In this document: positions 4,696-24,238 of the stretch, one piece after another | How positions within the stretch are numbered: the stretch's first letter is position 1 | Layout of the letters: every line of letters begins with the position of its first letter | DNA from: a virus | Length of the DNA stretch: 37,435 bases | Strand: one strand, 5' to 3' | IMG/VR virus record: IMGVR_UViG_3300046665_000756 | Coordinates: 1-37,435 of that record | Translations under genes and position numbers: made by a program | Notes under the pieces: model-generated | Told to the model about the DNA's origin: nothing | What the model saw: only the letters and a program-made list of their open reading frames with translations | Databases searched by the model: none

Positions 4696-7600
4696 CAGGT
4701 CACCTCCACCAGCATCGGGCCGCCACCACCTGTCGATTGCTCGAACATGTCTTTATGCTCCTTCGTGTTAGTCGCAATGCGATCCAGCGCCGCCTGCTGC
4801 TGTGCGACCGTCTCGCGCAACGCCCTGATCTCCGCAGCCAGCGCCTCGTTGTTGCTCGAAGGGCTGGCCAGCCGCGCCATGAGCGCCCGGTTATCGGCCG
4901 CAGGGATGATCCGCTCGCCCTTATGGATGAACGCCGGCATGTCCTCCGGAACGGAGTTCGTACCGACCGCGAACGGGTGCAGGTGCTTCTTGTACTCGTC
5001 GCTATTCATGATCGCGTCACGAATTGAGTCGAGCGTAGAGCCACCCGCGATAGCGTTCTGCCAGTACTCAAGGCCCGCCTGATCCGCGGGACGGCCAAGC
5101 AACTGCTGGTACATGTTCGCAATGCTGGACGTAGCGCCGACGATCGGATTCGCCTGCGCGCCCGTGATCGCGGTTTGCAGACCAGACATCGCCTGAGCCA
5201 AGGTCAGTGTTGCTATCGACTGGCCTTTCAGCAAGTCGATCTGCTCCTGGCCCTGGGCTACCATGTCGTCCAGACGAGTCAGCTGGGCCTGCAATGCGTC
5301 GAGCGACTGCTGCTCGACCGACAGTGAGTTGTCCGTGATATCGGCCAGTTGCGAGAGATCGTTCTGCGTCTGGTACAGATCCCGCAGGTAGTCCGCGTAG
5401 CTGCTGAACTGGTCGGAAGCATCCTGCGTCACCGCGGCGAGCGCCTTTTGCAGGCTGTCCGCCGTCGGCAGCGCGCCACCCGCTTTCGCGATCGCCAGCG
5501 CCGCACGGATCTGCGCCTGGGCACTTGCCCGCTCGGCCGCCTTCTGGTCCGGGGACTTCAGGCTGTCGAGCGTGCTGCGCAGCGCCTGCGACAGGGTTTG
5601 GAGCTTCGCAACTGCCGCTGTCTGGGCCGTGACACTGGCCTGGACGGCGGTTTTCTCACGCGCGACGACCTTCTGCAGCGCGGAGAACGCGTTGTCCACG
5701 CCACCGAGCAGCGTCGAGGCCGAATCTTTCATGGCCTGCAGCGCGGCGGCGGCTTTGCTCACCGCATCCGTTGCCGATACGGTTTCCGTGTGAACTTGAG
5801 CGAACGCCTCGGACAGCGCAAGCAATGACGTGAGTTGCTTGCCGCCGGCTTCGGTCGCTGCGGCGCCCGAATCGATCAAGCTGTTGACCAACGCCTTGAA
5901 CTCGTCACGCGTTGCCGGAATGGTGTCGAGGCCCAGGCTCGCGAGTGCCTTGTCCAGCGCTTCCGCCACCGGCTTGATCCGCTCGGCATCCGTCAGGAAG
6001 TTCTGGTTGAAGAACGACGCTTCAGAGCTCAGCGTCGACAGCCCCCCAGCCAGCTCAATCAGGTTCTCACGCGCTTTCGCCGACTCGAAACCCGTCGCAC
6101 CGAACAGCACAGAGGCCGATCGACCTAGAAGTTGCGCGACCCGATCGGTTCCCTTGAAGTCGCCCGCCAGGCGCTCGAGCGTTGCCGACGCCGCCTCGCC
6201 GGATTTCGCGAAGTCAGCCAGATTCGGCACGAGCTTGTTGGCGATCTCGTCCCCGATGTCGGCGAAGAAGTCGGTGATTGCCTGCGCGTCTTTCGTTGCA
6301 TCGCCGGTCAGCGCAAGGTCGAAGGTTTTGCTATACGTCGAGATCCAGTCAGCCGACACGCCCAGCGAAGAGGCAAAGCCGGACGAAGCCGTTTCGATTG
6401 ACCGCAAGCCTTGTGTGAACTGCTTGACCATTGCATCGGTCAGCGCCTTCGTGTCGGTCCCGTCCTTATCTGACCGGAACCACCCGCCATCCTGATGCCA
6501 CTTGGCGTAACTCTGACCGGTCAGGTCTGTAGCACTCAACGTTCCGCTTATCCCTTGAGCCGTTACATCTTTGGAGCCCATGCCGAAAGCGCGATTTATC
6601 AACCCGCCGACTAGGCCGCCTCCGATCGCCCATGGGCTCAGGAGCGTGTTCCAGTTGACGAAGGCGCGGTTGTTATCGGTGACCCCATATTTGCCCGAGA
6701 TCGAGTTGCCCAGCTCTCGGCCAATCGCGACCCCGGCCAAATAGGCACTGGCGGTGCTTGCGGCCGTCCCGAAACCTGTCGCCGCAGCGCCGTTGCCCGC
6801 GATCCCAGTCGATAAGTCATAGTTCGGCGCCGCACTTTCAAACATGCCGCTCAGCCCGGTCTTGTCGAAACCTGCCTGAACTGCATTCGCTACAGAAGTA
6901 CTGATGCCTTCGAAACCGTCATTCGTCAGCTTGTACAGGCCCGACGCCACTTGGGCGGCACTGATTGCGCTATTAGCACCGCCTGCACCGCTGTTGGCGG
7001 CCACACCATACCCGTTCGGCTGGCTCGCGATCTCGCCGGCGATGGCCGCCTGGCCGACGCCGAGGTAGTTGCCGACCAGCTGCACGATGATCGGTCGCGC
7101 GAACATCTTGTAGATCTGGTCCGCAACCGACGTCTTGAACGTGGTCACGAGCGACTTCGTGAACGACTGCCAGCCGGCGTTGCCGTTGTTCAGCATGTCG
7201 GCGAAGCCCTGCTGGAACACCTGGCCGTACTGGTCGACGGCTTGCTTCCAGTTGTCGTACCGCTGCTGCTTCTCAGCGCCGTCGAGCACGGCGGCCGCGC
7301 GCTCGCGAATCGCCGCTGCCTCCGCCCGGATGCTTGCCGCGCGTTCGCCCGTCAAGTCCCAGCCCTCGGCAACAACGGCCTTAGCTTCCTTCTGCGCAGC
7401 GATGTCGAGCAGGCGCGACGCTGTGAGGGCCGCGATCTGCTTCTGGCTCAGCCCGATCTGCTCGTTATAGTCCAGCTGCGCACGAGTCTGATCCTCCTGA
7501 CTCTTCCGCTCGGCTTGCTCCTTCTCGATCACGTCGGCAGCGCTGTTGACGGCCTGGCGGTAGCGGCGCTGCTCTGCCGCGAACAGGTCGTTCGACAGCT

Positions 7601-22418: not shown

Positions 22419-22613
22419 TCAGCCTCCGTCGCTACGCACGCGCACGCCGACGGAATCGTAGTAGGCATCGCGCGCTTTCAGTTCCATGCGCAGGTGCTGC
22501 AGCTCGGCCAGGATCAGAGCCAGCGTCTCCGCCGACGTCGACGCAGCCTGTGCTTGACGCGCAGTCAGTCCAGCAGCGACGCGCCGCGGCTTCGGTTTGT
22601 TCTCGATGCTCAT
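22419..22613 (-). CDS. First gene of the late operon, small basic protein (64 residues)
   Basis: 64 residues. The basic N-terminus (KPKPRRVAAGL) is followed by a helix (SAETLALILAELQHLRMELK). Its end carries the GGAGG site for the micro-protein downstream. It is the first leftward gene after the AT-rich moron island, so the late promoter or the end point of antitermination should lie just upstream, around 22614-22740. No clear sigma70 promoter is seen there. Function unknown. Confidence 0.6.
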   Translation of the reverse strand: MSIENKPKPRRVAAGLTARQAQAASTSAETLALILAELQHLRMELKARDAYYDSVGVRVRSDGG

Positions 22614-22636
22614 ATGGTCTCACGTAGATCTGTAAT

Positions 22637-22673
22637 AAAAAAAGGCCGCATGCGCGTTGTCGCGACAGGCGGC
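22637..22673 (-). terminator. Terminator-like hairpin upstream of the late operon
   Basis: Outer stem GCCGC/GCGGC (22645-22649 and 22669-22673) with an inner CGCG/CGCG hairpin, followed on the minus strand by CTTTTTTT. It lies only 24 bases before the first late gene. This is the expected place for a regulated terminator that a late antitermination factor would overcome. Confidence 0.5.
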
Positions 22674-22738
22674 GAAGGCTACCGAACTTAGGAAGGAATT
22701 ACGAAAGGCGAGGAACCCCAACTATGCGATTAACGCTT

Positions 22739-22813
22739 ACCATATCAAGGTGACCTAACTTGTTGCAAAGTTGGCTTCTACGGACTGCAATAATTAAGTC
22801 ACCGTGATATGGT
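22739..22813. repeat. 16-bp inverted repeat with central hairpin between the late operon and the HEPN moron
   Basis: Arms ACCATATCAAGGTGAC (22739-22754) and GTCACCGTGATATGGT (22798-22813) match at 15 of 16 positions as inverted copies, 43 bases apart. Between them lies a perfect small palindrome AACTT-N6-AAGTT (22757-22772). The region separates divergent transcription units and is AT-rich. It could be a double operator, a recombinase site or an RNA structure at the moron promoter. No other copy was seen in the window. Confidence 0.65.
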
Positions 22814-22881
22814 TACCGACTGCTTTTTACCAGCAAACCCGACAAGACCTGTCGAAATCAGATCTAACCTTTGGGAATTAC

Positions 22882-23619
22882 ATGAGTACGAAAAAAAGTG
22901 CGCGTAGAAGACTGGTTCAGGATATCGAACCTCACGACGCCGCCTGGACTGTTACCGATTATTTGGAATTGGGATACTACGATTACGTTGCCGCACGCGT
23001 TTTGCTGATCAACAACTTGCACATTCAAGGCCTTACACTAGCATCCACATGCATAGAAAAGTATCTAAAAGCGGTACTTGCAGTCCATAACAAAACTTGT
23101 AAAACGCATCTGGATGAGCCGGAATTCTTAGAGGTATTCGATCAACAAGGGATAGACATTTCCTACATCAGCAAAAGCTTTCTAGATTATCTAGGCCGAT
23201 CGTATAAATTTAGGTATATCGAACCGACATCACCGCCGGCGTCTGCCGTCGTCGAGCCATTGAAGTTACTTGCAGAGCTAGATTATTCAGTCAGCGTGTT
23301 CGAGGGGAGTTTTTCAGATCGCCTTGTTGAGTCACCTTATCGCTTAGCCGTTCAGTCAAATGATGAGCGGGTTTGGCAAAAAAATTACGTTCTTAACAAA
23401 ATCGATAAAACGGAATTCGTGTCGACACCATGCGATATGTACGCGACGATAATTGCACCAATGACAGAGATTGCGAAACTCACAGCACACAAATTCAAAT
23501 CGAAAAATAATTCGATCTTTGATTTCCCTAGAGCGAAAATCGTCCTACCAAATAGGCTAGAAATCGAATTCGCCTCGAGTGAAGAATGCATCTATTCGAC
23601 ATCTTCCATGGATCGCTAG
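22882..23619 (+). CDS. HEPN-like moron protein (AT-rich, opposite strand)
   Basis: 245 residues from the ATG at 22882; a GTG at 22804 is an earlier but less likely start because it lies in the inverted repeat. Residues about 31-78 have the HEPN-type helical pattern, with GYYDYVAARVLL and ASTCIEKYLKAVLAVHN. The usual RX4-6H RNase motif is not obvious, so catalysis is uncertain. The gene is clearly AT-richer than its neighbours, opposes the late operon and ends at its own terminator. These are marks of a lysogen-expressed moron, perhaps for superinfection exclusion. Confidence 0.6.
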   Translation: MSTKKSARRRLVQDIEPHDAAWTVTDYLELGYYDYVAARVLLINNLHIQGLTLASTCIEKYLKAVLAVHNKTCKTHLDEPEFLEVFDQQGIDISYISKSFLDYLGRSYKFRYIEPTSPPASAVVEPLKLLAELDYSVSVFEGSFSDRLVESPYRLAVQSNDERVWQKNYVLNKIDKTEFVSTPCDMYATIIAPMTEIAKLTAHKFKSKNNSIFDFPRAKIVLPNRLEIEFASSEECIYSTSSMDR

Positions 23620-23742
23620 CGGCAACACATCCGGCACTGTTTTCGGTGCCGGTTACAGCGTCCGGCGACGTGGCGCGCCCGGGGTGCGCTCGTCTGGTCT
23701 GGCCGACGCCAGATCGCGTTCGGTTTTCGCTGGATGTAAACG

Positions 23743-23776
23743 AAAAAAGCCCGCTCATCGGCGGGCTTTACTTTTT
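23743..23776. terminator. Bidirectional terminator between moron and early operon
   Basis: Perfect 7-bp stem AGCCCGC/GCGGGCT (23748-23754 and 23761-23767), flanked by A6 on the left and a T-rich run on the right. It separates the rightward HEPN-like gene from the leftward 142-residue gene that ends at 23810 and could stop both transcripts. Confidence 0.8.
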
Positions 23777-23809
23777 CCCGGACGTGCGAAACCGCCCAGT
23801 GACCGAACT

Positions 23810-24238
23810 CTACAAGAAATATATTCGCGTTGCAAGATTCTTTTTCAACTTCTCTTCGAGATCCTCACGCGCCTGGAGCAGCACAGCCTCGTAGTTCGAA
23901 CTCGAGAACCGCCATGAGGTCGCCAAGCCCTGGCTGCGGTAAATCGCCGCTCGCTGCAGCACAGTCAGGCTGTCGACCATCGCGTTGACGGCCTCACCCA
24001 TCTTGATGTCGGCGGCGCGCTGCGCATCGTGCACGTTGACGTCCGGCTCAGCCTCGCTGGCCAGCTTCATTCCGCCGATGCCCAGATCGCGGTCGTCGGT
24101 GCGCATGTAATCGAGCCAGCACGCCATCATCTGCACGTACGGATCAGGCTTCTGGAAAGTGGGTTTCGCCACCTCGTCACGACGCACGCGGCGGATGTTC
24201 GAGGTAGCAAAAATGCCGGGGATCGCGATGGTGGACAT
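23810..24238 (-). CDS. Last early-operon gene, candidate late transcription regulator
   Basis: 142 residues. The pattern MMACWLDYMRTDDRDLGIGG, then ADIKMGEAVNAMVDSLTVLQ and RAAIYRSQGLATSWRF, with a basic helical end, resembles small proteins encoded just before terminase genes, where Q-, RinA- or ArpU-type regulators occur. The C-terminal part could be a sigma-like or HTH region. An AGGAG site precedes the ATG and lies in the arm of an inverted repeat. The role as late activator or antiterminator is inferred from position, not from a clear domain. Confidence 0.5.
   Translation of the reverse strand: MSTIAIPGIFATSNIRRVRRDEVAKPTFQKPDPYVQMMACWLDYMRTDDRDLGIGGMKLASEAEPDVNVHDAQRAADIKMGEAVNAMVDSLTVLQRAAIYRSQGLATSWRFSSSNYEAVLLQAREDLEEKLKKNLATRIYFL

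Follow-up and report, generated by a model that had tools for sequence, protein, structure and literature searches.

A HEPN-domain cargo gene lies antisense in the late-operon leader of a temperate phage

The phage sequence analysed here carries, in the leader of its late operon, an inserted gene for a HEPN-domain protein that runs against the direction of the late genes. HEPN is a fold found in many anti-phage RNases. Comparison with related phages in which the same site is empty indicates that the gene is almost certainly horizontally acquired cargo (a moron), and the HEPN fold can be assigned to its product with high confidence. The best explanation, an abortive-infection-type HEPN effector expressed in the lysogen and placed antisense in the late-operon leader, is in our judgement evenly balanced between right and wrong. 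The HEPN moron itself is ordinary; the small family to which it belongs is new, and the site that it occupies is of interest.

The DNA examined, hereafter the window, is the whole 37,435-bp stretch of virus record IMGVR_UViG_3300046665_000756. An integrase, an HNH endonuclease and both terminase subunits (TerS and TerL) were recognised among its proteins. It represents a temperate phage belonging to soil bacteria, and since relatives of its conserved 142-residue protein p142 are present in Massilia genomes, its host is probably Massilia-like. All conserved neighbours of the HEPN gene (integrase, p92, p142, p64, p122, HNH, TerS and TerL) are encoded on the minus strand. The HEPN gene, P0001, occupies positions 22882–23619 of the plus strand (ATG at 22882, stop at 23619), in agreement with the 245-residue opposite-strand gene of a first-pass annotation; a GTG at 22804, inside one arm of an inverted repeat, is a possible alternative start. 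The AT-richness claimed relative to the neighbours was also borne out: the GC content is 0.434 against a mean of 0.630 ± 0.047 for segments of 738 bp, only 10 of 3670 such segments reach a value as low, and no other part of the 37,435 bp is richer in AT. A promoter scan of the plus strand gave no convincing candidate for the gene (best 8/12).

Gapped alignment with L006, L008, L009 and L011, relatives with an empty site, delimits the inserted segment to positions 22677–23646 (edges ± about 30 bp), a size of about 970 bp. The spacing between p142 (23810–24238, minus strand), through which the related loci were found, and p64 (22419–22613, minus strand), the nearest conserved gene past the insertion, is about 260 bp in L006, L008 and L009 versus 1,197 bp in the window. 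Empty-site comparison and base composition together support the status of foreign cargo. The interval 22620–23776, originally assigned to the moron island, does contain the gene and the insert; as the insert covers only about 22677–23646, however, that interval also takes in two terminators and a conserved RNA element that are ancestral to the phage.

The ancestral order on the late (minus) strand is promoter, terminator 1, RNA block, terminator 2 and p64. The predicted late promoter, TTGCAA-N17-TAGAGT, lies at the end of p142 (23807–23835, minus strand), where it is partly constrained by coding; of the p142 loci scanned, only the two most distant ones lack it. It reads antisense through the HEPN gene. 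Terminator 1, a bidirectional stem at 23746–23769 that comes after p142 on the late strand, had been taken for the HEPN gene's own terminator. The stem is real, but comparison with empty-site relatives shows that it is kept in phages without the gene and is thus not its own; the HEPN transcript may end there as well. Terminator 2, a terminator-like stem with a T-run (22636–22673, minus strand), precedes the late genes. The insert sits between the structured RNA element and terminator 2 and leaves the former undamaged.

The window protein itself scores 15.8 bits (E 0.016) against the Pfam HEPN family PF05168, a weak match below the curated cut-off of 22 bits. Its homologues in L053 and L024 also fall below it (21.6 and 20.3 bits), and those in L041 (32.6 bits) and a Hymenobacter plasmid (43.2 bits for a composite in which both frames of a frameshifted copy were read together) lie above. 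The family profile, searched against the PDB, matched the HEPN protein 1wol with an E-value of 0.0075. An AlphaFold (AF2) model built from 11 sequences has pLDDT values of 75–92 over residues 11–110, low values beyond residue 147 and values below 50 in the C-terminal part; the alignments behind this model and behind the conservation analysis are shallow. The predicted helices of the HEPN fold span about residues 17–147, followed by an uncharacterised C-terminal part (148–245). In a Foldseek search with this model the best five PDB matches were all HEPN proteins (probability 0.98–1.00), led by AF0298 (2hsb; probability 1.00, TM 0.71 by target length) at modest E-values (0.03); sacsin HEPN was also among the matches, and an earlier run with a three-sequence model additionally matched AbiV chains. 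HEPN matches were thus obtained through homologue profiles as well as through the AF2 model, so that the domain recognised in the first-pass annotation does not fail for want of a match. Its extent, given there as residues 31–78, has to be enlarged to about 17–147. The protein is probably of the HEPN-T type.

The closest homologue, a full-length intact frame in L053, is 38% identical over residues 1–236, and the C-terminal stretch of about 160 residues, previously described as matching nothing, is covered by this alignment up to residue 236. L053 is a related phage whose p142 is 68% identical to that of the window. Its HEPN gene is likewise on the opposite strand and AT-rich (GC 0.42 vs. 0.62) and adjoins p142, but on the other side, with p92 as its second neighbour. 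In a 44-kb phage, represented by two identical contig stretches (L041/L042), a homologue opposes the surrounding ORFs. A further one, in a prophage-like element of a Burkholderiaceae genome (L024/L035; integrase, endolysin, DNA methylase), adjoins a DUF4145 gene and is the one full-length member found in genome samples of 394 (family), 369 (class) and 398 (phylum). Searched directly, the single protein matched nothing among phages or viral contigs and only one plasmid, weakly; the family is rare within the samples searched. HEPN proteins of about 270 residues from Burkholderiales (L022, L025–L031, L034) were excluded because their similarity is limited to the HEPN part. The frameshifted Hymenobacter copy (L032 14941–15661, plasmid NZ_CP141187.1) has a Fic gene on one side and a recombinase on the other. 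Such a small and scattered family, with one member frameshifted, could point to cargo that is neutral or decaying and serves no function at present; the window and L053 frames are, however, intact and full-length, and their motifs are invariant at 38% identity, so we hold neutrality to be hardly probable. Separately, two Burkholderiaceae genomes have, close to prophage lysis genes, a HEPN gene adjoining a phage DNA adenine methylase (L022 5505–6419 and L035 5875–7285), and a Massilia aurea prophage with p142 has another, different HEPN gene beside its lysis genes and methylase.

The canonical RX4-6H motif at the end of helix 3 is absent from the window protein, as already noted in the first-pass annotation, and from its homologues. 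The four closest intact proteins share the invariant residues D34, Y35, A37, A38, R39, E59, K60 and K63, as well as H76, Y108, R111 and Y112. H76 is placed between helices 47–68 and 98–109, R111 lies at the end of the third helix, and E59/K63 form an Ex3K motif. An alternative-His class of HEPN proteins (AF0298/AbiV) was described by Anantharaman et al. 2013, who also found an Ex3[KR] motif to be common (PMC3710099). The features of the alternative site, a His between helices 2 and 3 and a conserved basic residue, are both found here, and the family, matched by sequence position, fits this class. An RX4XY reading (R106...Y112) was rejected because position 106 varies to K or H in the homologues. 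The invariance of H76, R111 and E59xxxK63 suggests a retained active site, and we tentatively propose, with slightly less than even confidence, that catalysis proceeds through H76 and R111. A HEPN domain that lacks the canonical motif can nevertheless be non-catalytic and may only bind RNA (PMC3710099). The lack of RX4-6H throughout the family and the Foldseek match to sacsin HEPN would accord with an RNA- or nucleotide-binding regulator of phage or host gene expression, in the manner of MtlR and sacsin HEPN domains; given the invariant H76, R111 and E59xxxK63 and the toxin-type genes found at the same site, we regard this as rather unlikely.

Among known proteins, the AF0298-type HEPN-T group (PF05168; 2hsb, 1ufb, 1wol, 1o3u) shares with the window protein the fold, the EK..K helix, the conserved His between helices 2 and 3, the RY ending helix 3 and the absence of RX4-6H (PMC3710099). 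The window protein differs in having about 100 extra C-terminal residues, in its carriage by phages and mobile elements and in its score under the Pfam cut-off. AbiV, a Lactococcus abortive infection protein (9bj6/9bj7), resembles it in the fold match obtained with the three-sequence model and in having its alternative conserved His at the corresponding position (PMC3710099). However, identity in the structural alignments is about 11–15%, the match is weak with the better, 11-sequence model, and AbiV is described as a two-component system, whereas here there is a single gene. The family adds a small phage-borne branch to the alternative-active-site type, for most members of which catalysis is a proposal.

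As judged from the loci compared, the site between p142 and the packaging genes is an accessory-gene hotspot at which toxin and HEPN cargo recurs antisense. HicA/HicB pairs lie antisense to the late genes in six distinct contigs (L016 1378–2116; L078 6246–6932; L082 7007–7726, identical to L103; L083 10089–10821; L098 2887–3566; L099 9868–10545), and so do a ParE-like toxin (L104 6100–6351), an MtlR-type HEPN protein whose R-NHFA-H motif looks canonical (L007 1262–1783, minus strand) and an orphan protein of 213 residues (L005 1356–1997, minus strand). Small ORFs opposite the late genes occur in L004 and others. A few relatives have same-strand cargo, namely orphan proteins of 154–184 residues in L061 (4952–5503, plus strand) and L081; a Pfam scan of the orphans of L005 and L061 gave no match above the cut-off. 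The late-leader site of L017 holds a tRNA gene (4991–5079) with a second tRNA-like sequence nearby. The comparison thus points, in uncultured and Massilia-type phages, to a site for accessory genes at which toxin and HEPN genes are found repeatedly on the strand opposite the late operon.

By association, the toxin-type genes at this site speak for the HEPN gene being toxin-like or defensive, and its fold class also makes defence plausible; we assign such a role a moderate probability. The HicAB pairs in relatives might also suggest a member of an addiction-type or HEPN/MNT toxin–antitoxin system whose partner is elsewhere or lost. The insert has one gene, though, and its neighbours are conserved phage genes with no adjacent MNT nucleotidyltransferase recognised, nor was a nucleotidyltransferase seen beside the L053, L024 and L041 homologues in the ORFs read; an addiction module is accordingly quite improbable.

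The strong inverted repeat reported before the gene was confirmed. Repeat search and folding place its 25-nt arms, 84% complementary, at 22734–22758 and 22794–22818; no better long, spaced repeat occurs in the window, its RNA folding has z = -6.0 (reached in 0/200 shuffles), and the hairpin lies 64 nt upstream of the gene. The sequence ATTACATG around the start codon is common to the window and L053 genes. The repeat is absent 5' of the L053 homologue, whose leader folds like its shuffles (z -0.3), which shows that the HEPN gene can do without it. One possibility is an operator pair flanking a weak promoter-like TTGCAA-N17-TGCAAT; nothing pointed to the operator being shared with another part of the window, in which the single additional match is no more than expected by chance. 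An integron attC reading was discarded, as inspection by eye found no matching core sites. The hairpin also invites comparison with phage-encoded AbiF, a toxic protein of the HEPN family (PMC3710099) that is neutralised by an associated RNA and, like the window gene, is phage cargo closely preceded by a structured sequence (PMC12373285). An RNA antitoxin of this kind is very improbable here: the hairpin is not kept in front of the 38% homologue, neither an abiF-motif nor any other Rfam match was found for it, and it may instead be an operator.

According to the abortive-infection proposal, the HEPN gene would be transcribed from its own promoter in the lysogen and its product would limit incoming phages by cleaving or binding RNA; catalysis, if any, would involve H76 and R111 with E59/K63, the arrangement proposed for AF0298/AbiV. 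PADLOC gave no match for the HEPN gene in the window. Superinfection exclusion in the strict sense of a surface or entry block, one of the roles first suggested, found no support. A 126-aa HEPN gene in the variable region of the Thermus phages IN93 and Tsatsa has been proposed as a defence gene (PMC11437467); its setting, accessory and variable DNA in a temperate phage, is alike, although site, host and protein size all differ.

After induction, late transcription would cross the HEPN gene antisense and could lower its expression, thereby avoiding self-harm. Such silencing is on the unlikely side, and since the predicted late promoter comes only after the L053 copy, silencing by that promoter cannot be general in the family. 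Its logic is comparable to that of Tha, a HEPN defence protein of an S. aureus prophage in which antisense transcription contributes mildly and the inhibitor protein Ith is the main factor (PMC11087260). Both are prophage-encoded HEPN proteins in an antisense arrangement, whereas the HEPN domain of Tha is C-terminal with R-X4-H, that of the window protein is N-terminal with the alternative motif, and no counterpart of the overlapping antisense inhibitor gene Ith was seen in the window. If the antisense arrangement matters, it would offer prophages a simple and general route to carrying defence without self-harm. A wider view, in which the late leader of the present group of Massilia-type phages is a dedicated switch of promoter, two terminators and a new RNA, with antisense toxin or HEPN defence genes shut off by late transcription, is speculative and rather unlikely.

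The structured RNA element itself (23648–23712, minus strand) comprises four helices with covarying pairs. Across 18 sequences 98.8% of the cells pair and four pairs are changed on both sides; 0/500 shuffles reach the observed covariation, and slid controls are 27–39% paired. The element, about 65–75 nt long, is present in the window, L003–L017, L053, L058 and L069, and its pattern matches 33 viral-contig stretches, many of them outside the p142 set. It has no match in Rfam, which makes this covarying RNA a candidate new phage motif, and it may be more novel than the HEPN gene itself. Its placement behind a promoter, with a terminator on either side, suggests an antitermination or regulatory role in the late leader. 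The position of p142 suggests a late regulator; it was not named an antiterminator because profile searches gave no meaningful match. In L003, L010, L014 and L017 a further conserved block, GTAGAAGCGCGACGA...TTCCGGAG..., which appears to be non-coding, lies 5' of the RNA element.
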